A stretch of 59,163 bases of DNA from Burkholderiales bacterium (GTDB taxonomy: Bacteria; Pseudomonadota; Gammaproteobacteria; Burkholderiales; Burkholderiaceae_C). Location: NCBI GenBank assembly GCA_016185015.1, contig JACPOI010000008.1:1-59163 (forward strand), written 5' to 3'. Position numbers and translations under genes: made by a program. The first letter of the stretch is position 1, and the number at the start of each line of letters is the position of its first letter. Positions 1,313-59,163 of the stretch are shown here, one piece after another. The notes under the pieces were generated by a model that did no database searches, had not been told where the DNA came from, and saw nothing but the letters and a program-made list of their open reading frames with translations.

Positions 1313-2182
1313 CTACCTTTTACGCTTGCTACTCCCCGGCCAAGGAAGCTCTCCGGTCAATTCCTGCAGCCCGTCATCTTCTGCTACTACACGTCCATAG
1401 CGATCAACTTCGATCTTCGGGGCGTCCTCTGGATCGAACCAAAGGAGCGACAAGGTGATGTCTGAAGAAGCGTGATGCCGACTGAGTTCGTTTAACTCGA
1501 GTCCCGACTGCCAGTTCTCAAGCCACACATCTTGTGCGACGTATCCTTCTCTGTAGTCTGAGGAACCGCTTGCGCGAAGTTGGGCCGCTATTGATTCAGT
1601 AGGGATTGGTGACTTGAACGTAATCTTCGCGCCCATGGCGCGAAGTGGGGTCGAGAACGCGGCGTACTTCACCCAGCCGCTTTCCATAGTCACGAATACG
1701 CAAGGTGAATCTGCAAGGCGAGCAAAACGCGAAGCGGTCGCCGGGAAGGATGTCTTGAATGCATCCATCAAAGTCTCGATGGTCCTTAAGGACGGTTCCA
1801 GGTGACGCGCTGCCTGCTTGAATTGCTCGTGAGGCATGAGCAATTCCGCTGCAAAGATGTCGCAGAAGACTTCGTTCGAATCTCGCTTGGCGTAACCCCA
1901 CTGAGGAACATGTTGATGACTTGATGGCAGTCCAAGGATCTTGTGGCCAAGCTCATGACAGATCGTGAATCGCTGTCGTTCATCTGACTCGTTTTCGTTT
2001 ACGGTGATGACGGTTTTGCCTTTGATTTCAGCGACCGTACCCGACTCTCTTGGCAACAGATTCTCTTTGCGTACTCGGGCAGCAACCTTGGCCAAGTAAG
2101 GCCCCAAGTCATCACGGATGTTGGAGAGGTCCAGTCCATTCAGAAAGGAGTGGGCTTGCCTGACAACATCCTGTTCGTCCAT
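1313..2182 (-). CDS. ImmA/IrrE family metallopeptidase
   Basis: The 289-residue protein has a zinc-protease motif in the context TICHELGHKILGLP (HExxH), followed by a second acidic helix (SNEVFCDIFAAELLMP) that supplies the third ligand. This is the ImmA/IrrE fold. Such peptidases cleave a partner XRE repressor to relieve repression, as ImmA does with ImmR in ICEBs1. The XRE gene lies directly upstream (stop at 2187, 4-bp gap), so the two form a regulator-protease pair. The C-terminal 150 residues look like a sensor or substrate-recognition domain. The pair is divergent from the ubiquitin-like operon and probably controls it. Confidence 0.85.
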   Translation of the reverse strand: MDEQDVVRQAHSFLNGLDLSNIRDDLGPYLAKVAARVRKENLLPRESGTVAEIKGKTVITVNENESDERQRFTICHELGHKILGLPSSHQHVPQWGYAKRDSNEVFCDIFAAELLMPHEQFKQAARHLEPSLRTIETLMDAFKTSFPATASRFARLADSPCVFVTMESGWVKYAAFSTPLRAMGAKITFKSPIPTESIAAQLRASGSSDYREGYVAQDVWLENWQSGLELNELSRHHASSDITLSLLWFDPEDAPKIEVDRYGRVVAEDDGLQELTGELPWPGSSKRKR

Positions 2183-2186
2183 GGTG

Positions 2187-2570
2187 CTATTCCTCTTCGT
2201 CGTACATCCGCTTAACCCGTGCCAATAAAGACGCCGGAGTTGGGCGAACTTCACCTCGGAAGCTCATGCCTGCTGCAGATACGAAATGATCGTAGGGAAC
2301 GCCTGGCGAAATCAAGGTATAGCTGACAAGGTCTGGCCAGGTAGTGGGATGTTCCGCCAGCCATTTGAAGATCAACGTGTCGCGCTCAGAAGCCTTTAGA
2401 GCACGAACTAGCTTCGTGACGGTCTCTGCAGTTGGGTTGTCCTTTTCGCCCGTTTCGAGGCGGTTGATGTAGGCGTTATCTACCTCACTCAGCAATCCGA
2501 GTTCACGCTGAGAGAGTGTTCGCCGGACGCGTAACTCTTTCAAGGCAGTGCCGAAGCCATTTGCAGGCAT
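2187..2570 (-). CDS. XRE-family regulator paired with ImmA
   Basis: The 127-residue protein has a typical Cro/C1 helix-turn-helix at its N-terminus (RTLSQRELGLLSEVDNAYIN followed by RLETGEKDNPTAE). I start it at ATG 2570, which is preceded by GGAG at about 8 nt. A GTG at 2741 would add 57 residues but has no ribosome-binding site and would bury the repeats at 2694-2711 in coding sequence. It is co-transcribed with the ImmA/IrrE peptidase, which probably degrades or cleaves it. By position it is the likely repressor of both its own operon and the divergent ubiquitin-like operon. Confidence 0.75.
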   Translation of the reverse strand: MPANGFGTALKELRVRRTLSQRELGLLSEVDNAYINRLETGEKDNPTAETVTKLVRALKASERDTLIFKWLAEHPTTWPDLVSYTLISPGVPYDHFVSAAGMSFRGEVRPTPASLLARVKRMYDEEE

Positions 2571-2693
2571 GCAGGGGTCTCCATTGGGAAATTCGAAAGC
2601 GCAGATTTTGGCGTCTTCTTTTTGTTGCCGAAAAGCAACAACGCGAGCGCCATTTCCTTGACGCTTGACGACAAGAAAATGATCTGGCACAGT

Positions 2694-2778
2694 GTTGTCT
2701 GTGTGGACAACGGGCGCATCGTTCAGAAAGCTACCGGACACTCATAAGCAATTCAATGTTTTTGTTTGGACAGACAAC
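2694..2778. promoter_or_regulatory. Candidate operators before ubiquitin-like operon
   Basis: An inverted repeat, GTTGTC (2694-2699) and GACAAC (2706-2711), recurs in part as GGACAGACAAC at 2768-2778. Both lie between the divergent regulator and the ubiquitin-like operon, where an XRE repressor would act. A second short hairpin, GTTGC/GCAAC, lies nearby at about 2623-2640. Confidence 0.35.
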
Positions 2779-2828: not shown

Positions 2829-3359
2829 ATGAAATCCGAAGTTGTTGAAATTTTCCTCCACGGGGCCGGCCGGCCGATGGTTGTTGAGACTCGGGCCGAT
2901 GAAGTCTTGCGTGACCTCCTCAACAGGCACGGTGCACATCCGGAGGAGGGTGAGCATGTGTACGTCGGCGAATCCCGCCAAGCACAAGATGACCCTGGCG
3001 CCGAACGGGACGATCACTGTCCTGCGGACGTGGCACTGACCATCGCGCAGTTGGGCTTGCTTGAAAAGCGCCATATTCATACTCATGCAGTGCACAGCAT
3101 CACCGTCACGGTGGAGTTCAACGGTGAGACTGCGAAGCGTGCATTCAACCCGAATACCACCATCGACTCCGTCCTGGCATGGGCTAAGCACCGTCTCCAT
3201 ATCGACCCTGTCGCGGGAGCCGACTATGTGCTCGAACTTGAGCCTTCCGGTGAAATTCCGCGAATGGATGAGCATCTGGGTGATTTGTTGCCCAAAGGTC
3301 AAGACAAACTGAAGTTCAAGCTTGTGAAGGAGGTCAATCCGCAAGGGGCAGTGGTGTGA
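2829..3359 (+). CDS. Ubiquitin-like protein, two tandem beta-grasp domains
   Basis: The 176-residue protein reads as two ubiquitin-like domains in tandem, roughly residues 4-88 and 90-167, joined by a His-rich link (RHIHTHAVHS). This resembles the multi-ubiquitin/BilA class. The tail after the second domain ends NPQG-AVV: one glycine (G173) followed by three residues. That is the form expected of a precursor that the neighbouring JAMM enzyme trims before activation by the E1. ATG 2829 is chosen because AAAGG lies about 8 nt upstream; an in-frame ATG at 2766 has no such site. Its stop overlaps the GTG start of the E2-like gene. The gene is the conjugated modifier of a four-gene system of the Bil/Bub type. 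Domain assignment rests on pattern reading, not on a profile search. Confidence 0.8.
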   Translation: MKSEVVEIFLHGAGRPMVVETRADEVLRDLLNRHGAHPEEGEHVYVGESRQAQDDPGAERDDHCPADVALTIAQLGLLEKRHIHTHAVHSITVTVEFNGETAKRAFNPNTTIDSVLAWAKHRLHIDPVAGADYVLELEPSGEIPRMDEHLGDLLPKGQDKLKFKLVKEVNPQGAVV

Positions 3360-3841
3360 CCTGCACAGCTCAGCGACTGCTAGTCGAGGACCTTGCCGGA
3401 GCTGCCTTCCGTGCTGGTGAAAGTCGGGGTGACTGGCGATTGGAGGGCGTGGCCTCAGAGCTGCCTTGGCCATATGTGTTTACACATATTTTGGCAGCCC
3501 AACGTGAGGGCAGCCCAGTCGAATGGCTTGTCCGCTGGGAAGTAAATGGCTATGGCAGCGGCCCGATTACCGGTGGTTTCTGGGACTCGTCTACGGGCAC
3601 CTATCTGGCCAAAGATAAGTGGCCCAGGGGGAAGCCTGGGTCCGTGGTGGCTTCCGTATTCAAGACGGAGGGCTGGGCAGCACCAGGTGAAGGGTTCTAT
3701 CACCCCTGGGATAGACGCGCCTTGCAGGGGCATCCATGGGCCGACCCACGATTCGCCTGGAGTTCGAAAGTCACGATTGCAGAGTACGTGGCTCAATTTC
3801 ATCGTTGGCTTACTTGCGAGGACTACCTTGGACAAAAATAA
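3356..3841 (+). CDS. E2-like conjugation protein (atypical)
   Basis: The 161-residue protein starts at GTG 3356, overlapping the modifier's stop by 4 bp. Its position between modifier and deconjugase, its length, and the order of an N-terminal helix, a WRL...LRWEV sheet region and a YHPWDRRALQGH segment are what the prokaryotic E2-like families show. The YHPWD segment is where a canonical E2 has its HPN...C active site. The only cysteines are C3 and C154 (in WLTCEDYLGQ), neither in the canonical place. It may be an E2 whose transfer cysteine has moved, or an inactive scaffold-type E2. The assignment depends largely on operon context. Confidence 0.6.
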   Translation: MTCTAQRLLVEDLAGAAFRAGESRGDWRLEGVASELPWPYVFTHILAAQREGSPVEWLVRWEVNGYGSGPITGGFWDSSTGTYLAKDKWPRGKPGSVVASVFKTEGWAAPGEGFYHPWDRRALQGHPWADPRFAWSSKVTIAEYVAQFHRWLTCEDYLGQK

Positions 3842-4316
3842 GCGAGTTGAAATCCCGCGGCTTCAATGGATGGGCCTCGTCGGAGATTTGAATGCCCGCG
3901 GTCGTGGAAAGCGAGAGTCGGGCGCGTTTCTCCTTGGCAAAAGAGATGCCAAGAGTCGAAGCGTGGTGAAGTACATCTGCTACGACGACCTCGATCCGAA
4001 GGCGTTAACGCACGGAATTGTCGAGTTCCATCAAGGAGGTTTTTCGAAGCTATGGGACATCTGCAAGGAACATGGCCTGCAGGTACTTGCAGATGTTCAC
4101 ACCCATCCAGGCAGAGATGTGCGTCAAAGCAGCATCGACAAAGAGAACCCGATGGTACCGGTGAGAGGTCACGTTGGACTAATTATTCCTCGATTTGGAA
4201 AGACTTCCATCTGGAGCCTGGATGCAGTTGGAATTCATCGCTTCCTTGGTGGTCGCCAATGGGAAAGCTTCAGCGCTTCCGACCTAGATTGCCCCGTCAG
4301 ACTTTCTCTTTGGTAG
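3828..4316 (+). CDS. JAMM/JAB deconjugase (DUB-like)
   Basis: The 162-residue protein carries a complete JAMM zinc-isopeptidase motif: E30 (in ESGAFLLG), then H91-x-H93 with seven residues to S101 and two more to D104 (HTHPGRDVRQSSID). The family removes ubiquitin-like proteins from targets or trims their precursors. In phage-defence Bil/Bub operons the equivalent enzyme exposes the modifier's C-terminal glycine. I place the start at TTG 3828, 14 bp inside the E2-like gene, because GAGGA sits 5 nt upstream and the protein then begins just before the fold. An ATG at 3546 would lie deep inside the E2 gene and is unlikely. The E1 gene follows after 4 bp. Confidence 0.88.
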   Translation: MDKNKRVEIPRLQWMGLVGDLNARGRGKRESGAFLLGKRDAKSRSVVKYICYDDLDPKALTHGIVEFHQGGFSKLWDICKEHGLQVLADVHTHPGRDVRQSSIDKENPMVPVRGHVGLIIPRFGKTSIWSLDAVGIHRFLGGRQWESFSASDLDCPVRLSLW

Positions 4317-4320
4317 TGCC

Positions 4321-5712
4321 ATGTCGCAAAAGCCGCAGACTAATCTTTCCAGGGTAGACAAGTTACGTGTCGACAGAGACCAGTTGTCACCCGAAGAATC
4401 AAGGGTAGGTCGCGCGGCTGGCGTACCGGGTATTGTGGTTGGAGAGGACGCTGCAACGTCGGAGTATTTGCAAATAGCCCTACTGACGGCCGTGAACTTG
4501 GCCCGCAAGTCATTCAATGCTCCTGTGCCGGTGCAAGCGCCCAAATGTGTCTGGGAAGCGATTTGCCTTACGGCCTTAGGCGGACAAGAGCGCCTCGGAG
4601 CGGCGCTGTTGGAAATCGGCGCATTTGAGGCGTCAATCAGGGAGACCGCACTGTGCCTCCTCATCGGCAACGGACCATTGGTCCCGCGCTCATTGCGTCT
4701 CACGTTTGATGGATGGCTGATTGGCGTTGGACCGTCCAGTTCCATGCCTCGAATGCAGGAGCGCCCATTCTGTACGTTGGCTGCGATAGCAGCGGCGGCA
4801 ATCGGCGTTGGCGAAGCGTTCTCACACTGGGCCGGCATCAATGTGGCTGCGACTCGCCAGGACATCAAGCTTTCTCTCTGGCGTCCAGATTTGTCGGCGG
4901 ACGACCCGAAGTCGATTGGCAATACCGTGCAAGAGTGTCCTGAATCGCTCGAGCTGTTTGGTTTAGGGCATTTGGGACAAGCCTACCTCTGGGCGATTGC
5001 TTCGCTTCCATTTGAGGATCGGTCCAAGGTGAGGTTGTACTTGTGCGATGACGATGAAGTTGAATTGCCAAATCTTGAGACCGGAGCTCTCTTGACGCCT
5101 TCGGACATCGGGAAGAGAAAGTCCCGTGCGCTTAGTCAATGGCTCGAGAAGCGAAAGTTTGTCACCAAATTGATTGAACGCTTCATTGACGAGAAATACC
5201 GCAGGTGCAGTGCGGAACCGGTCATTGCACTATCGGGATTTGACAACAATGAGGCGCGCCAGTTCCTCTCGTCAGCAGGATTCGACCTTTTGATTGATTC
5301 TGGACTAGGTGGCGAAGCGACAAATTTCGACTCAGTCTCCGTGCGCGCTTGGCCGCAGGACAAGGATGCCAGCACACTATGGCCGCTGGAAGACGATCTA
5401 GCACGCGAGAAACGCGAGGCAAAGCAAAGGGAACGGATTGCCTCAAACAGCGCGTACGAGGACTTAGCGCCTGATGAGTGCGGTCGACTCCTGGTTACTG
5501 GAAAGGCTGTTGCTGTCCCATTCGTAGGAGCCATCGCGTCCGTACTCGTTTTAGCTGAGGTACTACGTGCATGCAATGGGGTCGCCACATTCAATGACCT
5601 TAGGGTTCGCGTCTGCTCGATGACCGACAGGCCGCTTCCTGTAAGTCCATCAAATTCCGAAGCACCGCCTGTAAGAGGCTTGAAGCTCGTGGAGCTCCGA
5701 AAAAGTACCTGA
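4321..5712 (+). CDS. E1-like ThiF-family adenylyltransferase
   Basis: The 463-residue protein has two parts. Residues 1-200 lack nucleotide-binding motifs and fit an inactive adenylation-like half. Residues 205-463 have a Rossmann ATP site (G214-x-G216-x-x-G219 in LFGLGHLGQ) and the D-x-D and N region typical of ThiF/E1 proteins (CDDDEVELPN, residues 242-251). A helical, charged insertion (LAREKREAKQRERI) precedes DECG, where C387 is the best candidate for the catalytic cysteine. An inactive N-terminal half, an active C-terminal half and a helical Cys insertion match the published bacterial E1 of antiviral ubiquitination operons. It would adenylate the G173 tail of the modifier and pass it to the E2-like protein. 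Confidence 0.85.
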   Translation: MSQKPQTNLSRVDKLRVDRDQLSPEESRVGRAAGVPGIVVGEDAATSEYLQIALLTAVNLARKSFNAPVPVQAPKCVWEAICLTALGGQERLGAALLEIGAFEASIRETALCLLIGNGPLVPRSLRLTFDGWLIGVGPSSSMPRMQERPFCTLAAIAAAAIGVGEAFSHWAGINVAATRQDIKLSLWRPDLSADDPKSIGNTVQECPESLELFGLGHLGQAYLWAIASLPFEDRSKVRLYLCDDDEVELPNLETGALLTPSDIGKRKSRALSQWLEKRKFVTKLIERFIDEKYRRCSAEPVIALSGFDNNEARQFLSSAGFDLLIDSGLGGEATNFDSVSVRAWPQDKDASTLWPLEDDLAREKREAKQRERIASNSAYEDLAPDECGRLLVTGKAVAVPFVGAIASVLVLAEVLRACNGVATFNDLRVRVCSMTDRPLPVSPSNSEAPPVRGLKLVELRKST

Positions 5713-5862
5713 ATTTTGGAAGGAGGCGTTGGCCCCCGATGACCGGTCTGCGGCTAATACCGGACGGCCAAGCTTTTTACATGACCGGCAACAGTCGCTG
5801 CATAGCTGCCGACAGCTCTCGGTGCGCCTTTGACGATAGCGCGCCGAGGCATGCTTGAGGCG

Positions 5863-6600
5863 TTAGGTATCGTCGTCCTCGCTGCTCATGATTGGGCCAA
5901 GGAGCGAATCGCGGCCAGGCGAGTAGCGATAGCCTTCAGCTCTGAGCCTGAGCACTTCTTCCTCAGTCAAACCCTTCTTAACCATCTGGGCGACGACTTC
6001 GGGCGTGATCTCCACAGCATCGAATTGACCGATTACTGAGACCATCTTCATCATTGTCGACTGCGCTTGGTCCAGCAGCTTTCGGACGTCAGCGAGCGGG
6101 TAGCCCCCAATCGCACGCGTGCCGATCACAGGATGCTGGGATTCGACGCTGAAAAAGTCACCGAGGAGCTCAAAGGCGCAGTCCCATTCGACCTCAATGC
6201 AGTCTGGATCGTCGCGAAGCCCAATGGTTTGGCGCTCGCCATGCCAGACAAGACACATCGCCAAGTGTTCGTCGGGTTCGAGGAGCCAGGCGTCGCCGAC
6301 TCCGGAGGAGAAGAGCACGAAGGGTGGGCAGGCGACGCCGTTGCTCGTCATTACGGCTTTCGCCTGGCCACGAAGCTCCGCAGCGATGATCGATTCGCAC
6401 TCGTCGCGAATCGACCGCATCTGAGCTACCGCCTTGGCATTCGCGTTGCACTTGACGACGTGGTGCCAGTGGTCGTAGCCGGCCTGCTTGGCGATGCGAG
6501 TAAGCAGGTCGGCGTGCTTGCCTGCGCCGGAGCGCTGCAGCCTCTTGGCTTGTTTCTTGAGGCGTTCGACGACTTCGTCGGGCGTAGGAATGTAACGCAT
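5863..6600 (-). CDS. Unknown protein with AGYxxWxH N-terminal motif
   Basis: The 245-residue protein starts at ATG 6600 behind AAGGAG. Its first 55 residues (LKKQAKRLQRSGAGKHADLL followed by TRIAKQAGYDHWHHV) resemble a short helical motif seen at the N-terminus of many plasmid and island proteins of unknown role. The remainder is mixed, with an acidic tail (MSSEDDDT). No catalytic motif is recognised. It is convergent with the ubiquitin-like operon and has its own promoter space upstream (6601-6816), so it is probably an independent island gene. Confidence 0.65.
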   Translation of the reverse strand: MRYIPTPDEVVERLKKQAKRLQRSGAGKHADLLTRIAKQAGYDHWHHVVKCNANAKAVAQMRSIRDECESIIAAELRGQAKAVMTSNGVACPPFVLFSSGVGDAWLLEPDEHLAMCLVWHGERQTIGLRDDPDCIEVEWDCAFELLGDFFSVESQHPVIGTRAIGGYPLADVRKLLDQAQSTMMKMVSVIGQFDAVEITPEVVAQMVKKGLTEEEVLRLRAEGYRYSPGRDSLLGPIMSSEDDDT

Positions 6601-6816
6601 GACAGACTCCTTCTGTATGCGAATCACGGGTGCCCACTGCCTAGACTCGCCTACAAAGGGAATCAGGGGATGAAGATTGATGGAAGTCGTCCCGCGAGGG
6701 TTTGCCGAGGTGGGCAGCACGCGCCGACATGCGCGATTTTGATAATGTAGCCGTAGCTCGTGCTTTGGTCAACGTGCTCGCAAGATGGACGCATAGACAT
6801 ATGCGACCTGACGCCA

Positions 6817-7503
6817 CTACTGTGGATCATCGCATTTGAAAAGCTGCTGAATGATGTTGTGAACAACAACAAACGTGGTCAATACCGTCGGATAAAGATT
6901 GCTCGTACCATGAGCATGCATATTCCGGATATCAGGCAAGCTGTCCGCAATTCGCCCCAGCCAGTCGATGGCCAAATCCTCCTCTGTTGGCCTGATATCA
7001 GAGGGGTCGTAGGTCATCTCGTTTAGACCCAACTCCTCCATCTTCTTGATCATATCTATGGAGTGGCGCTGGTGGGCGAGTTTCCAAGCAGCATCTTCCC
7101 TAGGCGTGAAGCGCGCATTACTGATCAAGTCTTCGCGCTGTGCAACCCGAAGCATGTGCTTGAAGCCTGGAATATTCTCGTCATCAGGGTTGAGCAACCC
7201 AACGGCGATAAACTTCGATCTCAAGGAAAATTCGAGCGTCGTCAGTACGTATTGCTCAGCGACCATATAAAACCGATAAACGCACCAAGAATACAAAAAA
7301 AGATTCTTGGCTGTCTCAAAGTGAATTCTGATCTCTTCAGGGACTGATGCGCCAAGCACCAGGGTTGACATCGCTTGATGATGTCCGACGAGACGGTTTA
7401 AAGCATGCGCACCTGGTCCCATTCGAGGGTCAGGAAGGGAGATCTTCTCCGGACTGCGGAGGCAGTCGGCTGGATCCAGATCATGGGGGACATTGGTATT
7501 CAT
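6817..7503 (-). CDS. Unknown, possible HEPN-like protein
   Basis: The 228-residue protein is mostly helical. Near its C-terminus it has DIRNMHAHG, an R-x4-H arrangement with a following small residue, as in the RNase motif of HEPN-superfamily proteins, many of which are toxins or defence effectors. Nothing else identifies it. The start is taken at ATG 7503; the longer frame begins with a TTG at 7530. No strong ribosome-binding site is visible. Codon use is AT-rich like the rest of the island. The HEPN idea rests on a single short motif. Confidence 0.55.
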   Translation of the reverse strand: MNTNVPHDLDPADCLRSPEKISLPDPRMGPGAHALNRLVGHHQAMSTLVLGASVPEEIRIHFETAKNLFLYSWCVYRFYMVAEQYVLTTLEFSLRSKFIAVGLLNPDDENIPGFKHMLRVAQREDLISNARFTPREDAAWKLAHQRHSIDMIKKMEELGLNEMTYDPSDIRPTEEDLAIDWLGRIADSLPDIRNMHAHGTSNLYPTVLTTFVVVHNIIQQLFKCDDPQ

Positions 7504-7539
7504 GCGGGGGTGGCAGTGTCTTAGGCGCAAGCAGCTAGC

Positions 7540-8163
7540 TTAAAGCGTCGGCCAGAGGGTTTGAATGATCTTGAGGTTCTGCTCGGCCACTGCGATGGTT
7601 GACGAGCGACGTTTCGTAATGGCGTACGGCTTGTTGGTAAACAGGTCGATGTATTCCAGCTGCTTTGTACTAACGGGTGAGCCGGAAATCTCCAGGGCCC
7701 AGTGGACAAGCTCCAACGTGGTGCGGGCCATCTCGGGTTCGAGTGGCTTGGAGCGGTAGTGCAGCAAAAATAGCTGCTCAGCGCCGTTTTCCTGACCGTT
7801 CAAGTCTGGGCTAAAACGGAGTACTACGTCATCGACCGTAAAACTCAGGTGTTTTGCGGGAGCGATCTTCAGCTTCCGGCTCGCCAGTTCGTCTTGCTTG
7901 AATGAACTCAAGATGCGAAGGTTGTTGTCGCGCTTGGTCTCTTGCGTGAATGCCTCGATCTTTGCGGCCGCACGAGTCAGTTGCTCCACATCATTTCCAG
8001 CTTTGTAAAAAGCCCGGATGCCAACAAGAGCTTGTTGGTAGTAAGGCGTTTTGAATGACTGAGGTCCTTGCTTGGGGTACTTCTGCTCAGCAAGGATGCG
8101 AGCCTGGGCATGCGCCGGGAGATTTAGCAGCTCGGCGAAAGAGCGAATCGTAAGACTTGGCAT
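7540..8163 (-). CDS. Unknown island protein
   Basis: The 207-residue protein starts at ATG 8163 behind AAGGAAA. It has a helical N-terminal half (FAELLNLPAHAQARILAEQ) and a beta-rich middle with FTVDDVVLRFSPDLNG and LFLLHYRSKP. I do not recognise the family. The order of an acidic strand, a hydrophobic strand and a basic residue faintly recalls restriction-type nucleases, but the residues do not line up well enough to claim it. It is followed closely on the same strand by the unknown gene ending at 6817, and the Zn-ribbon gene upstream ends 17 bp before its start. Confidence 0.6.
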   Translation of the reverse strand: MPSLTIRSFAELLNLPAHAQARILAEQKYPKQGPQSFKTPYYQQALVGIRAFYKAGNDVEQLTRAAAKIEAFTQETKRDNNLRILSSFKQDELASRKLKIAPAKHLSFTVDDVVLRFSPDLNGQENGAEQLFLLHYRSKPLEPEMARTTLELVHWALEISGSPVSTKQLEYIDLFTNKPYAITKRRSSTIAVAEQNLKIIQTLWPTL

Positions 8164-8179
8164 GACTGTTTCCTTGAAC

Positions 8180-8653
8180 TCAGGTGTGCGGAACAGAGGC
8201 TGGGGGACGTGTCTGACGGATATGCAGAAGAACTTTCTCGTTGATCTGTTTCTTCTTGGCAATTTGCCTCGGGCTCAATTTCCTCTTGCGCATGATCCGG
8301 ATATAAAAGTCACGCTCCCAATCGTTGATCCAGCCACGCTGGTGTGCATGGTCAATGGCTTCCGCGTTGAGCGACTTCTCTAGGTCCAGGCGGACGCGTT
8401 TGACGGCTTGAAATATCAGGTCAGACGGAAGGCCAATGAATCTCTTTACGCAGCAGTTGCCGACGGTCGCGAAAGCACCGTTAGTTCTGTTACGCAGGAC
8501 ACAGTTCTCGATGATCGGGTAATGGCCGCATAGACAGGTCTCAGGCTCTTCGGATTCGAAAATCTCATGCAGGGTCCATTCGAGTTTGGCCAGATCCCAA
8601 ACCCTAGCGGTGGATCGAGCGAGGATCTCACGGGTGAGCTGAAACTCAGGCAT
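8180..8653 (-). CDS. Zn-ribbon-like island protein
   Basis: The 157-residue protein starts at ATG 8653 behind GAAGGAAA. A cysteine cluster (CLCGHYPI, then C in ENCVLRN, then NCCVKRF) suggests a structural zinc ribbon in the first half. The C-terminus is basic (RIMRKRKLSPRQIAKKKQIN). Similar small Cys-cluster proteins are common on phages and islands without known function. It is probably co-transcribed with the gene ending at 7540. Confidence 0.65.
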   Translation of the reverse strand: MPEFQLTREILARSTARVWDLAKLEWTLHEIFESEEPETCLCGHYPIIENCVLRNRTNGAFATVGNCCVKRFIGLPSDLIFQAVKRVRLDLEKSLNAEAIDHAHQRGWINDWERDFYIRIMRKRKLSPRQIAKKKQINEKVLLHIRQTRPPASVPHT

Positions 8654-8947: not shown

Positions 8948-8980
8948 TTGATTCCTTTCTGCGGCGGGATGCCGCTATAT

Positions 8981-9052
8981 GTATGTACGGTTGCCAAAAA
9001 CGGCGCGGACAGATAGGCTTTTGTCCGCGGCGGTAAATCCGACCGTACATAC
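8981..9052. promoter_or_regulatory. Nested inverted repeats between divergent genes
   Basis: GTATGTACGG (8981-8990) is perfectly inverted at 9043-9052. Inside it, GCGGACA (9005-9011) pairs with TGTCCGC (9022-9028). The nested repeats fill the space between the DUF2188 gene and the sigma-like operon and are good candidates for operator or attenuator structures acting on both. Confidence 0.45.
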
Positions 9053-9074
9053 TAAAAGAGATCAGGAGGAACAA

Positions 9075-9722
9075 GTGCCGCGAGCAAGCACACCGGAACG
9101 TCACGCCAGCCCAGAAGAGGTTGTCCAGGCGTTTAATAAACTTCGACCGGAGGAAGTCCTCCGTCTTAAAAAACGTGCCACCCTCCAGATCGGAGGGACG
9201 GAATACACGAATCCGTTGGAACTGTTGAGCGAGGCAGTTCAGCGGGCAATGATCGCGACAGATCCCAATAAGCAGGAAAACGAACGCGGGCGGCCGTGGC
9301 CGATGGAACGCGTCGAATTACTCGCGTTCTTATCCAGGTCGATAGATAGCATCGCAGACACATCGCGCCAATCCCTGCATCAAAAAGAGACGGATCGCCT
9401 AGAGGCACTCGCCGGGGATGAGGGCGACGTTGCCACTGTGTTGCACGATGCAGACTTTTCTGCGCCAGATATAGTTGATCAGGCAATCGATCTGGAGGAA
9501 GACCGGGCTCGCCAGGCTGCTGCAAAAGCAGATGCAGATCTCATTGAACAGCACTTTGCTGGAGACCAGGCTGTCTTGGCCATCATCGAGGGAGAGAAAG
9601 AAGAAATGTCGCCGGGAGAAGTTCAGGAGATGTTTGGGCTCAACGAAAAAACTTACGATTCGGCGCGCCGCCGTTTGCGCCGCCAAGTTGACAAACTCAT
9701 GCCGGGAAGGAGTCAGAAATGA
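9075..9722 (+). CDS. Sigma-70-like DNA-binding protein
   Basis: The 215-residue protein starts at GTG 9075, which has a full AGGAGG ribosome-binding site 5 nt upstream. Residues 10-120 recall sigma region 2-like helices (NPLELLSEAVQRAM, ERVELLAFLSRSIDSIA). The C-terminus (MSPGEVQEMFGLNEKTYDSA followed by RRRLRRQVD) is a region 4-type helix-turn-helix. It is probably an alternative or accessory sigma-like regulator. Its stop overlaps the ATG of the next gene (ATGA), and the third gene is an ImmA/IrrE peptidase, so it may be held inactive by the middle protein and released by proteolysis. That last point is inference. Confidence 0.6.
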   Translation: MPRASTPERHASPEEVVQAFNKLRPEEVLRLKKRATLQIGGTEYTNPLELLSEAVQRAMIATDPNKQENERGRPWPMERVELLAFLSRSIDSIADTSRQSLHQKETDRLEALAGDEGDVATVLHDADFSAPDIVDQAIDLEEDRARQAAAKADADLIEQHFAGDQAVLAIIEGEKEEMSPGEVQEMFGLNEKTYDSARRRLRRQVDKLMPGRSQK

Positions 9723-10120
9723 GCAACAACAGCGTGAAGGCTCTGGACGCCATCCGCCGCCTGGCCTTAAAAGATCTCGACGCCACGACTGACGAAGAGT
9801 TGCGCGCCGAAGTAATAGAAGATGGGGATGATTTGGCGGCCATTGCTCAGTCAGTAATAACTGAGCTAGACGTCATTATTTCTGGGGCCATGCGTGAGCA
9901 CACTTCAGCAATTAAGTCTCGAATGCCATCGGTGAGTTCTATCACAACACTGCGACCTGCAATTTCGCGCATCAAAGAGTTGATCGAGGGTGCGTTCAAA
10001 GCAGATCCGCAACTGGCTACAGCTTTCCGAGAGGGTTCTCGACAATCGGATGCAGATATAGAGTCGCTCTACGATGACCTAGTAGCGCTGGGCAAGATAC
10101 ACCCACAAGGCAATGATTGA
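9719..10120 (+). CDS. Small acidic helical protein, possible anti-sigma
   Basis: The 133-residue protein is acidic and predicted helical (TTDEELRAEVIEDGDDLAAI). It has no membrane segment and no recognised domain. It is coupled to the sigma-like gene (4-bp overlap) and to the ImmA/IrrE gene (8-bp overlap), which suggests a fixed three-part complex. I infer that it could bind the sigma-like protein and be the peptidase's substrate, but nothing in the sequence proves this. Confidence 0.6.
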   Translation: MSNNSVKALDAIRRLALKDLDATTDEELRAEVIEDGDDLAAIAQSVITELDVIISGAMREHTSAIKSRMPSVSSITTLRPAISRIKELIEGAFKADPQLATAFREGSRQSDADIESLYDDLVALGKIHPQGND

Positions 10121-10871
10121 TCTATCCGCACTGAGTCCAGCAGAACGCCTACTATGGTCATATGGGGTGCGTACATCTGAGCATATCGATCTAGAGGCAA
10201 TAGCTGCTGCGAGAGGTGCTCAGGTTGTCTACCGACGATTAGATGGATGTGCTGCTAGGTTGGTGGCTAGCGATGAAAGGGCCGTTATTAGTATTGCCTT
10301 GGATGACTATCCAGGCCGGCGCCGATTTTCTTTGGGTCATGAGCTTGCGCACTGGATCTGCGACAAGAATCGTGACTCGTTTAAGTGTGCAAATGCCGAT
10401 ATTGCGCCTCAGAACGACGAGGCAAAAACGGTAGAAGCTTATGCAAACAGCTACGCGAGCCAGCTGCTGCTGCCCGACTACCTAGTCGTGCCCTGCATCG
10501 GCAATAAGCCAGTCAATCTTGATCTGGCTCGATCATTGGCCACAGACTTTCGGGCAAGCCTTACAGCTTCTGCAATCAAGCTTACGCGGCGAGCAAAGGC
10601 GCCGGCTGTCATCGCATGCCATGACCAAACGCGCCTTCGGTGGTACCAAAAGAACCTTGCATTTCCTCAAGACATATATGTCCGCAGCCAGCTACACCAG
10701 GACACGTCGGCATTTGAAATGGTTTTTGGTGGTTCGGACGGGATGTCTAGACCAAAACGAGAATCTGCAGACCATTGGCTTAACGGGCCTGGGGTGTTCA
10801 GGATGTGTGTCTCATCCCAATCCATAAAGCTCCCAGACGGAACGGCTTTGTCACTGATAGTACTTGCTTAG
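10113..10871 (+). CDS. ImmA/IrrE family metallopeptidase
   Basis: The 252-residue protein has HExxH in the context SLGHELAHWICDKN and a later helix EAYANSYASQLLLPD that supplies the third zinc ligand, as in the ImmA/IrrE group. The C-terminal half is the variable sensor part. It overlaps the preceding gene by 8 bp. Its operon lacks an XRE repressor; the partner is instead a sigma-like protein. The most likely role is signal-dependent cleavage of a regulator within this operon. It is distinct from the peptidase at 1313-2182. Confidence 0.85.
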   Translation: MIDLSALSPAERLLWSYGVRTSEHIDLEAIAAARGAQVVYRRLDGCAARLVASDERAVISIALDDYPGRRRFSLGHELAHWICDKNRDSFKCANADIAPQNDEAKTVEAYANSYASQLLLPDYLVVPCIGNKPVNLDLARSLATDFRASLTASAIKLTRRAKAPAVIACHDQTRLRWYQKNLAFPQDIYVRSQLHQDTSAFEMVFGGSDGMSRPKRESADHWLNGPGVFRMCVSSQSIKLPDGTALSLIVLA

Positions 10872-47439: not shown

Positions 47440-48003
47440 TCAGGCGCTGGCCCAGCGTGCCAGCAGTTCCACGTCTTCCGGGACCAGCTGGCCTTTTTCG
47501 GCCTGCAGCACACGGCCATCGCGGCCGCGGATCAGGGTGATGGGCAGGCCCTTGGGCTTCGGCAGAACGCGATGGATCTCCGGCGTGACGAAACCCACGG
47601 GGAAGGTGTAGCCCTTCTTCTGCAGATAGGCCAAGGCGTCTTCAGGTTTGCGGTCGATGGACAGGGTGAGCAGTTGCAGGCCCTTGCCACCCAGGGCGCG
47701 CTGCGACTCCCAGAGCTTCTGCATCTCGGGGCTTTGCAGCGCGCAGAAGGGGCAGGTGCTGGCCCACCAGTAGACCGCGAGCACCCGCCCGTCGGCCTGG
47801 GCCGGACGGAACACCGTGCCATCGAGCAAGGGGACTTCGGGCAGGCGCAATGGCGTGCCCGGTGCGGGCAGGGGGCCGGCCTTGGCCTCGACGCCGGGGG
47901 AGGAGGGGGCAGCGACAGGCTGCCCCAGTGCGGACTGGCCCAGGGCCAGGCTGCCGGCGAAAAGCGCGCTGCCGGCGACCAGCTGTCTACGTTGCGGATT
48001 CAT
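47440..48003 (-). CDS. TlpA-like disulfide reductase
   Basis: The 187-residue protein has a twin-arginine-like signal (MNPQRRQLVAGSALFAGSLA) and a periplasmic thioredoxin fold with the active site STCPFCALQSPEM (CPFC). The family reduces periplasmic disulfides, for example in cytochrome maturation. Start at ATG 48003; a longer frame to 48039 would displace the signal peptide. Confidence 0.86.
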   Translation of the reverse strand: MNPQRRQLVAGSALFAGSLALGQSALGQPVAAPSSPGVEAKAGPLPAPGTPLRLPEVPLLDGTVFRPAQADGRVLAVYWWASTCPFCALQSPEMQKLWESQRALGGKGLQLLTLSIDRKPEDALAYLQKKGYTFPVGFVTPEIHRVLPKPKGLPITLIRGRDGRVLQAEKGQLVPEDVELLARWASA

Positions 48004-48051
48004 GCCGATGATCTTAGCGCCTGACGATGTCGGCGCCATCGGGGTGAGCCC

Positions 48052-48963
48052 TCAGGCCCAGGAGTCGATCAGCGGTTCGGCCTGCTCGATCAGGAACTTC
48101 TTGAACGATTGCGCCGCGGGCGAGAGTTTCTTCTGGCCCAGGTGCGTGACGTACCACTTGCCGACGATAGGCATGCCGCTGATGTCCAGCAGGGCCAGGT
48201 GGCCGGCGGCCAGTTCGTGGCGCACCGTGCGCATGGAGAGGAAGGCCAGGCCCATGCCGGCCATGACGGCCTGCTTGATGGTCTCGTTGCTGGGCATCTC
48301 CATGGCCACCTTGATCGGCATCTCGTACTGCTCGAACAGGCGCTCCATGGCCGCGCGCGTGCCCGAACCCTGCTCGCGCACGACAAAGGGGTGGTCCTTC
48401 AGCACGTCGAAGGCCATGCGCTTGCGCCGCACCAGCGGGTGGTCCGGCGGGGCCACGATGGCCAGCGGGTTGCTGGCGAAAGGCGTGGCCTCGCAGTCGA
48501 GGTTGGCGGGGGCGCGCCCCATGATGACCAGGTCCAGCTCGTTGCGCGAGAGCATGCCCAGGATGTTGTCGCGGTTGTCGATGTGCAGCGAGATGTCGAT
48601 GCCCGGCATCAGCTTGGTGAAGCGCACCAGCAGCATGGGCACGAAGTACTTGGCGGTGCTGACGATGCCCAGCTCGATCCGGCCTTTCTTGGCCCCCACG
48701 TGCTCGGCCATGCTGGCTTCCAGGTCCTTGAGCTTGCCCAGGGCGGCGATGGCGTGAGTCAGGAACTCCAGGCCGGCATGCGTGAGCTGGATGTTGCGGC
48801 CGACCGGTTCTATCAGCGAAAGGCCGAAGGCCTCTTCCAGCTGGCGGATCTGCATGGACACGGCGGGCTGCGTGACAAACAGGCGTTCGGCCGCTCGGGA
48901 GACCGATTTTTCGCGGGCGACTTCGATGAAGGTCTGCAGTTGCTTGAGCGTGTAGTTGCGCAT
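48052..48963 (-). CDS. LysR-family regulator, second CbbR-like
   Basis: The 303-residue protein has an N-terminal winged helix (EKSVSRAAERLFVTQPAVSM) and a CbbR-type effector domain with VREQGSGTRAAMERLFEQYE and SNETIKQAVMAGMGLAFLS. It is clearly a paralogue of the regulator at 49028-49975 over the effector domain. It lies just downstream of that gene, with its own palindromes at 48972-49002. The two regulators may sense different metabolites or control different cbb-linked genes. Confidence 0.85.
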   Translation of the reverse strand: MRNYTLKQLQTFIEVAREKSVSRAAERLFVTQPAVSMQIRQLEEAFGLSLIEPVGRNIQLTHAGLEFLTHAIAALGKLKDLEASMAEHVGAKKGRIELGIVSTAKYFVPMLLVRFTKLMPGIDISLHIDNRDNILGMLSRNELDLVIMGRAPANLDCEATPFASNPLAIVAPPDHPLVRRKRMAFDVLKDHPFVVREQGSGTRAAMERLFEQYEMPIKVAMEMPSNETIKQAVMAGMGLAFLSMRTVRHELAAGHLALLDISGMPIVGKWYVTHLGQKKLSPAAQSFKKFLIEQAEPLIDSWA

Positions 48964-48971
48964 GAAATCAA

Positions 48972-49002
48972 ATCAGCTAATGCTGATATTTGCTTAAGCA
49001 AA
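48972..49002. promoter_or_regulatory. LysR-type palindromes before second regulator
   Basis: ATCAGC (48972-48977) and GCTGAT (48982-48987) flank TAAT, and a perfect 14-bp palindrome TTTGCTTAAGCAAA lies at 48989-49002. Both are directly before the start of the LysR gene at 48963 and fit autoregulation. Confidence 0.55.
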
Positions 49003-49027
49003 CATTATATTTGTTGATGAATCGGGG

Positions 49028-49974
49028 TCAGTTCGCGCCCAGCGGCGCCATGCGGATGTGGCGGCCGTACTGCTCGGCCAGGAAGACCTCGCCGCGTTCC
49101 AGGATGAAGTAGCGGAAGGCCTCGGCCGGCGGCGACAGCAGCTTGGACAGGGTGTGCACCACGTTCCAGGCGCGCACCACCGGGGCGCCCTGGACGTCGA
49201 GGATGGCCACGAGTTGGTTGTCCAGCTCCAGGCCGATGGTGTGCAGCGAAAGAAAGCTCAGGCCCATGCCGGCCATGACCGCCTGCTTGATGGTCTCGTT
49301 GCTCGACATCTCCATCGTGACCTTGGGTTCGAAGTTCGCATCGCCGAAGAACTTCTCCATGGCCGCGCGCGTGCCCGAGCCCTGCTCGCGCACGATGAAG
49401 CTGTAGGGCTGCAGCGCCGGCACATCCAGGTGGCCGCGCTTGAGCAGCGGGTGGTCCACCGGTGCCACGAAGACGTGCGGGTGGGCGGCAAAGGGTTCGG
49501 CGCGCGTGGCCATCTCCTTCGGGGGGCGGCCCATGATGGCGATGTCCACCTCGTTGCCCTGCAGCATCTTGAGCAGTTGCTCCCGGTTGCCCACGATCAG
49601 GCGCACCTCGATGCCTTCGTGCTCGCGCTGGAACTCGGCCAGCAGGCGCGGCAGGAAGTATTTGGCCGTGCTGACCATGCCGATGGTCAGCGTGCCGATC
49701 TCCAGCTTCTGCAGGCGCGCCGCGGCGTCCTCGGCGTCCTTGAGCGTGGCCAGGATCTTGCGCGCGTAGACCAGCATGTACTCGCCCGCCGTGGTCAGCG
49801 CCACTTGGCGGCCGCTGCGTTCGAACAGGGGCAGGCCCACATGGCTCTCGAGCTCCTTGATCTGCATGGTCACGGCCGGCGGCGTCAGGTGCATGGCCAG
49901 CGCCGCCTTGCTGAAACTGAGCTGGCGGGCGACCTCGCTGAACACCCGGAGTTGGCGAAAGGTGGCGTTCTTCA

Positions 49975-49975
<1 letters not shown>
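49028..49975 (-). CDS. cbbR: LysR-family CO2-fixation regulator
   Basis: The 315-residue protein has an N-terminal winged helix (RQLSFSKAALAMHLTPPAVT) and the CbbR effector domain (VREQGSGTRAAMEKFFGDAN; SNETIKQAVMAGMGLSFLSL). It is divergent from cbbL, the standard position of CbbR, which activates the operon in response to metabolites such as phosphoenolpyruvate, RuBP or NADPH. Its start lies 102 bp from that of cbbL. Confidence 0.93.
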
Positions 49976-51535
<1,560 letters not shown>

Positions 51536-51559
51536 GCCCGAATACAGGAGAACCGAACC

Positions 51560-51994
51560 ATGATGAGCAACCCCACCGGCCGCCTGACCCAGGGCCAGTT
51601 CAGCTTCCTGCCCGACCTGACGGACGCCGAGATCACGCTGCAGATCGAATACGGCCTCAAGAAGGGCTACGCCTGGAGCGTGGAATACACCGACGATCCG
51701 CACCCGCGCAACACCTACTGGGAAATGTTCGGCATGCCCATGTTCGACCTGCAGGACGCGGCCGGCGTGTTGATGGAAGTGAAGAACTGCCGCAAGTCCT
51801 TCCCCAGCCACTACATCCGCCTGATGGCCTTCGACTCCACCCGTGGTGTCGAGTCCATCGTGATGAGCTTCATCGTCAACCGGCCCAAGGACGAACCCGG
51901 CTTCATGCTGGAGCGCCAGGAAATCGGCGGCCGTTCGATGCGTTACACCACGCGCGGTTACGGCGCCGACAAACCCGAAGGCAAGCGCTACTGA
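51560..51994 (+). CDS. cbbS: RuBisCO small subunit, red-type
   Basis: The 144-residue protein has [20 protein letters not shown], the [20 protein letters not shown] core and a C-terminal [17 protein letters not shown] extension that forms the central pore barrel in red-type enzymes. It follows cbbL by 24 bp. Start ATG 51560 or 51563; the AGGAG at 51546 suits either. Confidence 0.96.
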
Positions 51995-52023
51995 TCCGAT
52001 CGCCCTCTGCGGACCACCTGACC

Positions 52024-52989
52024 ATGACTGCACCCAGCTACGCCATCCCCGGTGTCGTGTCGGCGCCCGCCGCCTCGCCGGTGGAAGAGGCCGGCGGCCC
52101 GTCCCTGGCGCCGGTGGACAGCGGCGCGCGCAGCGTGGCGCAGGTGCTGGCGCAATCGCAGGTGGAAGACGTGCTGGCCGAGCTGGAGCGCGACCTTGTG
52201 GGCCTGGCACCGGTCAAGGCGCGCATCCGCGACATCGCCGCGCTGCTGGTGATCGACAAGCTGCGCATCAACCTGGGCCTGACCAGCCAAGCGCCCAGCC
52301 TGCACATGTGCTTCACCGGCAACCCCGGCACGGGCAAGACCACGGTCGCCCTGCGCATGGCGCAGATCCTGCACCGCCTGGGTTATGTGCGCAAAGGCCA
52401 TCTGGTGGCCGTCACGCGTGACGACCTGGTGGGCCAGTACATCGGCCACACGGCACCCAAGACCAAGGAAGTGCTGAAGAAGGCGATGGGGGGCGTGCTC
52501 TTCATCGACGAGGCTTATTACCTCTACCGCCCCGAGAACGAGCGTGACTACGGGCAGGAGGCCATCGAGATCCTGCTGCAGGTGATGGAAAACCAGCGTG
52601 ACGACCTGGTGGTGATCCTGGCCGGCTACAAGGACCGCATGGACACCTTCTTCCAGTCCAACCCCGGCATGTCCTCGCGCATCGCCCACCACCTGGACTT
52701 TCCCGACTACTCGGTGGACGAGTTGATGCAGATTTCCGGGAAAATGCTGGAGACGCAGAATTACCGCTTCGGCCCCGGTGCGGCCGAGGCCTTCGACCGG
52801 TATCTGCAATTGCGCATCGGCCAGCCGCATTTCGCCAACGCACGCAGCGTGCGCAACGCGCTGGACCGGGCCCGTCTGCGCCAGGCCAGCCGCCTGTTTG
52901 CCGAGCGTGACCGCGAATTGACCCGGGACGACCTGACGACCATCGAGGCGCAGGACATCCTGGCCAGCCGATTGTTTAAAACCGAATGA
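52024..52989 (+). CDS. cbbX: Red-type RuBisCO activase, AAA+
   Basis: The 321-residue AAA+ protein has Walker A G99NPGTGKT106 and Walker B with D162-E163 ([10 protein letters not shown]), and the pore-loop region [13 protein letters not shown]. Red-type activases pull on the large subunit's C-terminus to release inhibitory sugar phosphates, often after RuBP activation. It is placed right after cbbS as usual. The first 60 residues are variable. Confidence 0.95.
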
Positions 52990-52997
52990 GGTTCTCC

Positions 52998-53750
52998 ATG
53001 ACCCAGCCCACGCTACAAGCCCTGATCTTCGACGTCGACGGCACCATTGCCGATACCGAGAGCCTGCACCTGGAGGCCTTCAACTACGCTTTCAACGAAC
53101 TGGACCTGGGCTGGCACTGGGACGAGGCGCTGTACACCGAACTGCTGGAAGTCTCCGGGGGCAAGGAGCGCGTGCAGCACTACTGGAAGCGGATCAACGC
53201 CGATGTGAAGGCGCTGGACGCGCAGGCGGTGCAGCAGACCGTCAACCGCATCCACGAGCTCAAGACCGCCTACTACGAGGGCGCCATCAACGCCGGTGCC
53301 GTGGGCCTGCGCCCGGGCATCCTTGAACTGTTCGATGAAGCCGCCGGCGCCGGTGTGCTGCTGGCCATTGCTACCACCACCTCGCCGGTCAACATCGCGG
53401 CCCTGCTGCGCCGTGCCATGGGGCCGGCCTGGCGCCACGCCTTCGCGGCCATCGGGGACGGCTCCACGGCGCCGCTGAAGAAGCCGCACCCCATGGTGTA
53501 TGTACAGATCCTGCAGACGCTGCAACTCGATCCGCGGGCCTGCCTGGCCTTCGAGGATTCGGGCAACGGCCTGAAGGCGGCCACCCTGGCCGGCCTGGCC
53601 ACGGTGATCACGCCCACGCAGTACACCCGCCACCACGACTTCAGCCGCGCCATGCATGTGCTGCCCGACCTGGGCAAGGTGCACCTGGCCGACCTGCAGC
53701 AATGGCACCAGGCGCACTGGTCCGGTGAGCGTCTCCTGACGGTTGAGTAA
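52998..53750 (+). CDS. cbbY: CbbY-type HAD phosphatase
   Basis: The 250-residue HAD protein has the nucleophile motif LIFDVDGTIADTESLHLEAF, the TTTSPVN motif II and the FEDSGNGLKAA motif IV. CbbY dephosphorylates xylulose-1,5-bisphosphate, an inhibitor produced by RuBisCO misfire and released by CbbX. ATG 52998 is preferred because TGAGG lies 6 nt upstream; an earlier ATG at 52986 overlaps the cbbX stop. Confidence 0.93.
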   Translation: MTQPTLQALIFDVDGTIADTESLHLEAFNYAFNELDLGWHWDEALYTELLEVSGGKERVQHYWKRINADVKALDAQAVQQTVNRIHELKTAYYEGAINAGAVGLRPGILELFDEAAGAGVLLAIATTTSPVNIAALLRRAMGPAWRHAFAAIGDGSTAPLKKPHPMVYVQILQTLQLDPRACLAFEDSGNGLKAATLAGLATVITPTQYTRHHDFSRAMHVLPDLGKVHLADLQQWHQAHWSGERLLTVE

Positions 53751-53766
53751 ATAAAGTAGCCCCATC

Positions 53767-54861
53767 ATGCCCCTGTCCAAACGAACCACCCTGACCCAGT
53801 TCCTGATCGAGGAGCGCCGTCGTTTCCCGGATGCCCGGGGCGACTTCAATGCGCTGATCCTCGACGTGGCGCTGGCCTGCAAGGCCATCGCGCGCGCCGT
53901 GGCCTTTGGCGAACTCGGTGGCGTGCTGGGCAACCAGAGCGGTGAGCAGGGTGATGCCGTCAATGTGCAGGGCGAGACGCAGAAGAAGCTCGACATCCTG
54001 AGCAATGAGCTCTTCACGCACCTCAACGAGTGGGGTGGACACCTGGCGGGCATGGCTTCCGAGGAGATGGACCTGCCCTACCAGATCCCGGCCAAGCATC
54101 CGCGCGGCAAGTACCTGCTGGTGTTCGATCCGCTCGACGGCTCCAGCAACATCGACGTCAACGTCTCGGTGGGCAGCATCTTTTCCGTCCTGCGGGCGCC
54201 GCAGGAGGTGGTGGCCTCGGGTCGCGATGTCGTCGAGGCCGACTTCCTGCAGCCCGGCACGCAGCAGGTGGCGGCCGGTTACGCGCTCTACGGCCCCACC
54301 ACCATGCTGGTGCTGACGGTGGGCAACGGTGTCAATGGTTTCACGCTCGACCCCAACCTGGGCGAGTTCATGCTCACACATCCGAAGCTGCAGATCCCGG
54401 CCGATACCCAGGAATTCGCCATCAACGCCTCCAACAGCCGGTTCTGGGAAGCCCCGATCCGACGTTACGTGGACGAGTGCCTGGCCGGCAAGACCGGTCC
54501 CCGGGGCAAAGACTTCAACATGCGCTGGATCGCTTCCATGGTGGCCGAGGCGCACCGCATCCTGATGCGCGGCGGTGTCTTCATGTACCCCAAGGACAGC
54601 AAGGAACCGGCCAAGAACGGCCGCCTGCGCCTGCTGTACGAGGCCAACCCCGTGGGTTTCATCATGGAGCAGGCGGGCGGGCGCGCCAGCACAGGGCGCC
54701 AGCCGATGTTGATGGTGCAGCCGACCTCGCTGCACCAGCGCATCGGCCTCATCTTCGGCTCGAAGAACGAAGTCGAGCGCATCGAGCGCTACCACGCGGA
54801 GCCGATCAAGATCGAGAACGACAGCCCGTTGTTCGCCGAGCGCGGATTGTTTCGCGTGTGA
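53767..54861 (+). CDS. cbbF: Fructose-1,6-bisphosphatase class I
   Basis: The 364-residue protein has the class I metal site in [20 protein letters not shown] and the substrate loop [16 protein letters not shown]. It removes the 1-phosphate of fructose-1,6-bisphosphate, and often of sedoheptulose-1,7-bisphosphate, in RuBP regeneration. It lies 16 bp after cbbY. Confidence 0.95.
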
Positions 54862-54865
54862 ATAT

Positions 54866-54950
54866 GAAGCACCCCCTGAGTGCCCTGCGGGCTCTTCCCC
54901 CTGAAGGGGGACGACACCAGCGGCCCGGCAAAGCCGGTTCCGCGGTGTCC
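54866..54950. repeat. Structured intergenic repeat
   Basis: Two hairpins fill this stretch: TTCCCCCT/AGGGGGA near 54895-54910, and a long imperfect stem from GACACC (about 54913) to GGTGTC (54943-54948) capped by CCGGC-AAA-GCCGG. The sequence resembles a highly repeated intergenic element I recall from Comamonadaceae genomes. It separates fbp from the phosphoribulokinase gene and could lower or end transcription between them. Confidence 0.6.
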
Positions 54951-55026
54951 CGCGATCAGTCCCGGGGGCGCTTGCAGGGATTCACATCGCATGAATCAAA
55001 AGATTTTTTAGCTTCAGGAGACCTTT

Positions 55027-55911: not shown

Positions 55912-55912
55912 G

Positions 55913-57967: not shown

Positions 57968-57987
57968 TTTTTTTCAGATCTACTTCG

Positions 57988-59163
<1,176 letters not shown>

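Follow-up and report, generated by a model that had tools for sequence, protein, structure and literature searches.

The bilABCD operon

The window, that is, the whole 59,163-nucleotide stretch analyzed here (Burkholderiales bacterium, NCBI GenBank assembly GCA_016185015.1, contig JACPOI010000008.1, positions 1 to 59,163), carries four successive + strand open reading frames (ORFs) at positions 2829-5712, which by homology and architecture are a ubiquitin-like conjugation operon of the known Bil type. The first gene, bilA (2829..3359, +), encodes a ubiquitin-like protein (Ubl) with two beta-grasp domains (PADLOC BilA, E 8.6e-36). It is followed by bilB (3356..3841, +), for a UBC/E2-fold protein (PADLOC BilB, E 2.8e-39; Pfam DUF7665, E 3.9e-28), by bilC (3828..4316, +, from a putative TTG start at 3828), for a JAB/JAMM deconjugase (PADLOC BilC, E 1.1e-59; Prok-JAB, E 2.2e-6; PDB 8tyx BilC, E 8.4e-4), and by bilD (4321..5712, +), for an E1-like adenylyltransferase (PADLOC BilD, E 8.6e-119; ThiF, E 4.5e-8; PDB 8tyz E1(BilD), E 0.0046). 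All four PADLOC matches were to Bil, in a comparison made without a Bub profile, and NCBIfam gave no match above its cut-offs for any of the four window proteins. A first-pass annotation made from the letters had proposed a complete four-part conjugation operon of anti-phage type, and the PADLOC matches, together with the Pfam matches to the second, third and fourth proteins, bore this out.

The residues expected of such a system were found in the individual proteins. In BilA, the two beta-grasp domains were supported by an AlphaFold model, by a structure match of residues 89-173 and, for the N-terminal half, by an internal repeat; Pfam gave for this protein a sub-threshold DUF2604 match only. 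BilA ends in NPQG-AVV, with Gly173 followed by a three-residue tail. The E, HTH, S and D motif of BilC is complete, as had been read from the letters, and the landmarks of BilD are GLGHLG, Asp243, Lys267 and Cys387. Thus, four homologues lie in one operon and in the Bil order, with the BilA domains and Gly, the JAMM motif, and an adenylation site with its Cys.

The position of the deconjugase between E2 and E1 had been taken as a distinct gene order, a view that we rejected. The order A-B-C-D on one strand was common to 105/105 complete loci (bilA was not found in 3 further loci), and an excerpt of PMC11354881 names BilA as the Ubl, BilB as the E2, BilC as the JAB deubiquitinase (DUB) and BilD as the E1; the Ubl-E2-DUB-E1 order of the window is therefore canonical. 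An anti-phage role of the operon was predicted from its Bil type. The first-pass annotation had credited Bub operons as well as Bil operons with protection against phage; the part on Bub did not stand, as protection by Bub has not been shown according to PMC13373217.

BilB and the missing catalytic cysteine

The E2 fold assigned to the second protein was upheld by its model, which had a predicted local distance difference test (pLDDT) score of 94.8 and the UBC fold, with 8tz0_C as best structure match and Mms2 among the matches. This assignment was drawn from predicted structure and structure match because sequence profiles of BilB found no E2 in the PDB, with no PDB chain matched at E 10. The site in the window BilB reads YHPWDRRALQGH, and Trp118, within FYHPWDR, stands at the column where most BilB relatives have the catalytic Cys; the description of this E2 as atypical was therefore correct. 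The BilB reviewed in PMC11354881 uses, according to the excerpt, Cys138 in a CEHH motif with Glu at +6 and His at +8 and +13. Among the relatives the common motif was LPCDRxSxxGH, in which the His at +8 was kept in 91/91 Cys rows, the Glu at +6 was present in part of the Cys-bearing relatives only, and no His at +13 was seen among those read. Of 101 distinct BilB proteins, 85 have Cys at the site, 6 Trp, 5 Leu, 4 Tyr and 1 Ser, and within the Cys group this was the sole column with Cys in 85/85 (next-best column, 62/85). By motif spacing and as the sole all-Cys column, the Trp118 column best fits the published catalytic Cys138. The window BilB thus has the UBC fold, and it was not classed as a catalytic E2 because Trp118 stands in place of the thioester Cys.

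The 80 genome-contig loci in this comparison were the best 80 of 163 from one BilD peptide pattern, confirmed and ranked against the window sequence; since loci were chosen and ranked by likeness to the window, the Cys-less fraction should not be read as a prevalence. We removed loci without a recognised BilB (L002, L018, L026, L096 and L097, in our numbering of loci) and L109 and L119, where bilD was alone in the stretch examined. Eight duplicate copies were removed before the 101-protein count, and the set of 107 rows with BilB (16 Cys-less and 91 Cys) retains some identical proteins. The PADLOC BilB profile matched 64/64 members of set A3, Cys-less ones included.

The Cys-less proteins fell into several lineages. 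The window clade comprises the window, L003 (equal to L017), L004, L015 and L016, with the motif FYH(P/H)(W/Y)DR and 100/100 support on the BilD tree; L003, L004, L015 and L016 have Tyr at the site and the window has Trp. A Methylobacterium/Sphingorhabdus clade (L008, L084 and L092) has Leu and likewise 100/100 support on that tree. A Trp clade was formed by L014, L105 and L106, with L122 beside them on the BilC+BilD tree; the BilB motif of these four is (I/V)YR(A/G/P)W, and L014 has an annotated XRE-family regulator upstream and no UvrD match. Single Cys-less cases were L024, L033 and L062. On the unrooted trees, the Cys/Cys-less label changed at least six times on the BilD tree (14 Cys-less rows, L071 included), at least five times on the BilC+BilD tree (16 Cys-less rows; three changes forced by starred branches) and at least five times on the BilB tree built without the site columns (two forced). 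These changes may be losses or partly regains, as the trees lack a root and long branches lead to a number of Cys-less rows (L014, L033 and L062 on the BilD tree; L122, L033 and L062 on the BilC+BilD tree). On the BilB tree, a grouping of L004 with the window clade required L033 to be included (support 89). The suggestion of a separate subtype was thus supported on another ground than the one first given: the E2 catalytic Cys is missing in the window clade, and gene order gives no such distinction.

We rejected sequencing error as an explanation for the lost Cys of the window clade because the loss recurs in separate records, namely the plasmids L003 and L004, the complete chromosome L015, the drafts L016 and L017, and the window. 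In L071, the BilB gene (195-668) has Ser at the site through a TGC to AGC change relative to the near-identical L081 and L083, possibly a private mutation or a metagenome-bin error; L071 was left out of the Cys versus Cys-less group counts, the BilC+BilD tree and the BilB tree, and kept in the BilD tree.

Other parts of the Cys-less operons were retained. In all 107 rows, the BilD GxGxxG, Asp243, Lys267 and Cys387 were invariant, as were the BilC E, H, H, S and D; in a separate 96-row BilD set that includes BilB-less loci, the Cys was present in 94 rows and gapped in 2. The conjugation Gly of BilA was found in 15/16 Cys-less rows (one gap) and 88/88 Cys rows, and all four genes were open frames in 16/16 Cys-less rows. 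BilB itself keeps Tyr115 in all rows, and the Cys-less rows keep Asp119 (13/16), Arg120 (15/16) and His126 (15/16). Within the clade, identity to the window BilB was 38-56%, and between the window and L015 the proportion of nonsynonymous differences (pN, 0.285) was well below that of synonymous differences (pS, 0.716), with dS near saturation; dN/dS for the L084/L092 pair is unreliable, as it includes N-terminal codons overlapping bilA. These retained residues, the clade identity and the low pN relative to pS indicated that BilB was kept with its site filled by a bulky residue.

Proposed transfer of BilA and its alternatives

Judged from sequence and predicted structure, the operon has all four parts, the E1 and deconjugase catalytic residues that were examined are kept, as is the BilA Gly, and BilB has an E2 fold with Trp for Cys, which suggests that BilA attachment may be unusual in manner. 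We proposed, with a confidence that falls a little short of even, a CapH/CapP-controlled Bil operon with a pseudo-E2 BilB, in which BilA passes from BilD to the target without an E2 thioester, this transfer step being the part that we infer. BilC would trim AVV from BilA, and BilD would adenylate BilA and load it on Cys387 as a thioester. Because BilB cannot carry the BilA thioester at the usual site, it may act as a Mms2/UEV-like scaffold, keeping hold of the substrate or bringing the E1~BilA thioester into position. BilA would then go from BilD directly onto its target, which, judging by the Collimonas Bil, is probably a structural component of the phage, and BilC could undo the attachment. 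The target of the Collimonas Bil is the central tail fibre, according to an excerpt of PMC11364771, and by analogy the same fibre may be the target here. More tentatively, a family of bacterial Ubl immune pathways may have shed the E2 thioester more than once, with E1~Ubl discharged directly and the pseudo-E2 serving as scaffold or substrate receptor, an E3-like specificity factor. Several points weigh against the proposal: direct E1-to-substrate transfer is a matter of inference; the equivalence of Trp118 and Cys138 is drawn from the all-Cys column and from a motif spacing in which the +8 His is kept, the +6 Glu is partial and the +13 His is unseen; and a Cys154 lies after the last large helix in the window and three relatives.

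The last of these points raises a relocated nucleophile, in which Cys154 (WLTCEDY), near the conserved Asp156, would carry BilA as a thioester, leaving the E1-E2 relay ordinary except for the shifted active site. This is possible for the window clade because 4/5 distinct members have Cys154 (the window, L003, L015 and L016), and in the BilB model this residue lies at the end of helix 141-153, beside Asp156. However, the remaining clade member, L004, has Gly at this column and its sole Cys elsewhere, and Cys at the column was not enriched (20/85 Cys-bearing versus 4/15 Cys-less; Fisher p 0.75), so that relocation to residue 154 was rejected as a general rule; it is also closed to L008 and L033, whose BilBs are free of Cys over the final 150 residues. 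We regard the displaced relay as rather unlikely for the window. A non-Cys nucleophile near the pocket, forming an oxyester via Ser, Thr or Tyr, would suit the Tyr at the site in L003, L004, L015 and L016, most of the window clade, and Ye and colleagues are said to have discussed non-Cys chemistry for a diverged bacterial pathway in 2026. The window Trp and the Methylobacterium/Sphingorhabdus Leu are, however, non-nucleophiles, and we give this chemistry a slim chance.

It is decidedly unlikely, in our assessment, that BilB is a dead remnant of an operon that is degenerate or being lost. The canonical catalytic residue is gone, and L071 is one base off its Cys-bearing sisters at the site codon; yet the four frames are open in every Cys-less row with E1 and JAMM residues invariant, the clade identity and the pN well below pS speak against decay, and, L071 aside, the replacement is always Trp, Tyr or Leu. 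A second E2 acting in trans, with BilB as adaptor only, would parallel the eukaryotic Mms2/UEV pseudo-E2s, which work beside a Cys-bearing E2, and Mms2 was among the BilB structure matches. Against this, searches of the four genomes to which the window, L015, L016 and L017 belong turned up no second BilB; Prok-E2_A and Prok-E2_B gave no match in the window genome (assembly 95.76% complete; Prok-E2_C and D lay outside the search); and the Prok-E2_E match there was sub-threshold, with an internal stop, of a type also seen in control genomes. A partner in trans thus appears very improbable, and we retain the scaffold role of BilB as the preferred explanation.

Regulation, distribution and known systems

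Divergent from bilA lies a capH-like gene for a helix-turn-helix (HTH) repressor (2187..2741, -; PADLOC capH, E 3e-12, a match confined to the HTH region, at positions 2-60 of the 103 in the profile; HTH_3, E 4.4e-11), and adjacent to it a capP-like gene for its partner, an ImmA/IrrE (M78) protease (1313..2182, -; PADLOC capP, E 8.2e-57; Peptidase_M78, E 1.1e-16). The two neighbours thus match the repressor and protease of a CapH+CapP pair, the former over its HTH part only. According to PMC13373217, such pairs are found with immune operons, Bub included, and act in response to DNA damage; in characterised pairs CapP cleaves CapH upon binding of single-stranded DNA. By analogy, single-stranded DNA would activate the window CapP to cleave CapH, and bilABCD would be switched on. 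In 5/5 distinct window-clade members a CapP-like protease is encoded some 3 kb or less from bilA (the L003 match being weak, 6e-9), and one also adjoins the L033 bil locus. It is not exclusive to Cys-less operons, since the Cys-bearing L045 and L091 have a CapP-like and L031 a CapH-like neighbour. A UvrD-type helicase was upstream instead in 63/77 Cys-bearing loci and in the three loci of the Methylobacterium/Sphingorhabdus clade.

Elsewhere in the window, a second CapP-like ImmA/IrrE protease (10113-10871, +; PADLOC capP, E 1.3e-50) lies 4 kb past the operon, behind a 247-aa ORF (8979-9722), and perhaps controls another, lost or unrecognised immune operon. Near the contig start, an HTH protein (406-912, +) is AbiEi-like in its C-terminal part (PADLOC AbiEi, E 7.4e-16, residues 103-157). 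The four ORFs after bilD (5863-8653, -) had no Pfam match at E 0.01 and no PADLOC match at E 0.001. By eye, positions 48000-58700 hold a Calvin-cycle cluster with LysR regulators, the RuBisCO large subunit (50075-51535), a CbbX-like ATPase, fructose bisphosphatase, phosphoribulokinase, transketolase and phosphoglycolate phosphatase; the host may be a betaproteobacterium with an autotrophic lifestyle.

A tblastn search with BilD hit none of 50,697 phage records and 37 of 72,556 plasmid records, and a scan of viral contigs gave one relative, the Cys-bearing L098. BilD was found in 3/60 relatives of the window genome (one being the window itself, the other two matching only in part), in 1/369 of its class at 1e-20 (the window) and in 7/399 of its family (window included), as well as in 12/349 of the family of the L017 genome (L017 included), 1/251 of the order of L016 (L016 itself) and 2/31 of the order of L015 (L015 included). 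Two bilD relatives had no recognised bilB, namely L109 and L002 (Burkholderia cepacia ATCC 25416 plasmid, 4995-6284; 53.5% identical to the window BilD); each could be either a leftover or an E1 that serves another purpose.

Taken together, the operon is of a known kind with canonical order, and the noteworthy part is the absence of the E2 Cys from otherwise intact operons; the literature searched gave no paper on a Cys-less BilB, the primary Bil papers lying outside that search. The E1-E2 thioester relay is regarded as the core of ubiquitin-type conjugation, and the Cys-less Bil offers a small four-gene system for asking if conjugation can make use of an E2 fold that is not catalytic, and how E1-only transfer might have come before the relay or taken its place. 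It also calls for caution with annotations, as the PADLOC BilB profile labels the E2 component regardless of the Cys.

Compared with known systems, the window operon shares with the Bil of Collimonas sp. OK412 and the solved set 8tyx-8tyz-8tz0 the four genes, the two-domain Ubl, the UBC-fold E2, the JAMM DUB and an E1 with conserved Cys, but differs in lacking the Cys at the E2 catalytic position. The solved set is also distant in sequence, as the weak match of BilD to 8tyz and the failure of the BilB profile in the PDB attest. The nearest relatives, on Paraburkholderia caffeinilytica CF1 plasmid p1 (L003) and in Acidithiobacillus sp. YTS05 (L015), share the FYH(P/H)(W/Y)DR site and a CapP-like regulator near the operon; unlike the window, both have Tyr at the site and a BilA that ends at Gly without a tail, and in L003 the regulators are on the operon strand, whereas the window capH and capP are divergent. 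The L003 operon may have been among those tested by Millman et al. (2022). The eukaryotic UEV/Mms2 proteins pair with a Cys-bearing E2, whereas none was found for the window in the families searched. Class 6e operons, as described in an excerpt of Iyer et al. (2006; PMC1779556), combine a polyUbl with an inactive E2/RWD-like UBC domain. They resemble the window in being bacterial Ubl operons with a UBC-fold protein without Cys; however, in class 6e JAB and E1 form one fusion protein and a metal-binding protein accompanies them, whereas the window has four separate Bil genes, and, unlike class 6e, most BilB homologues carry the Cys.
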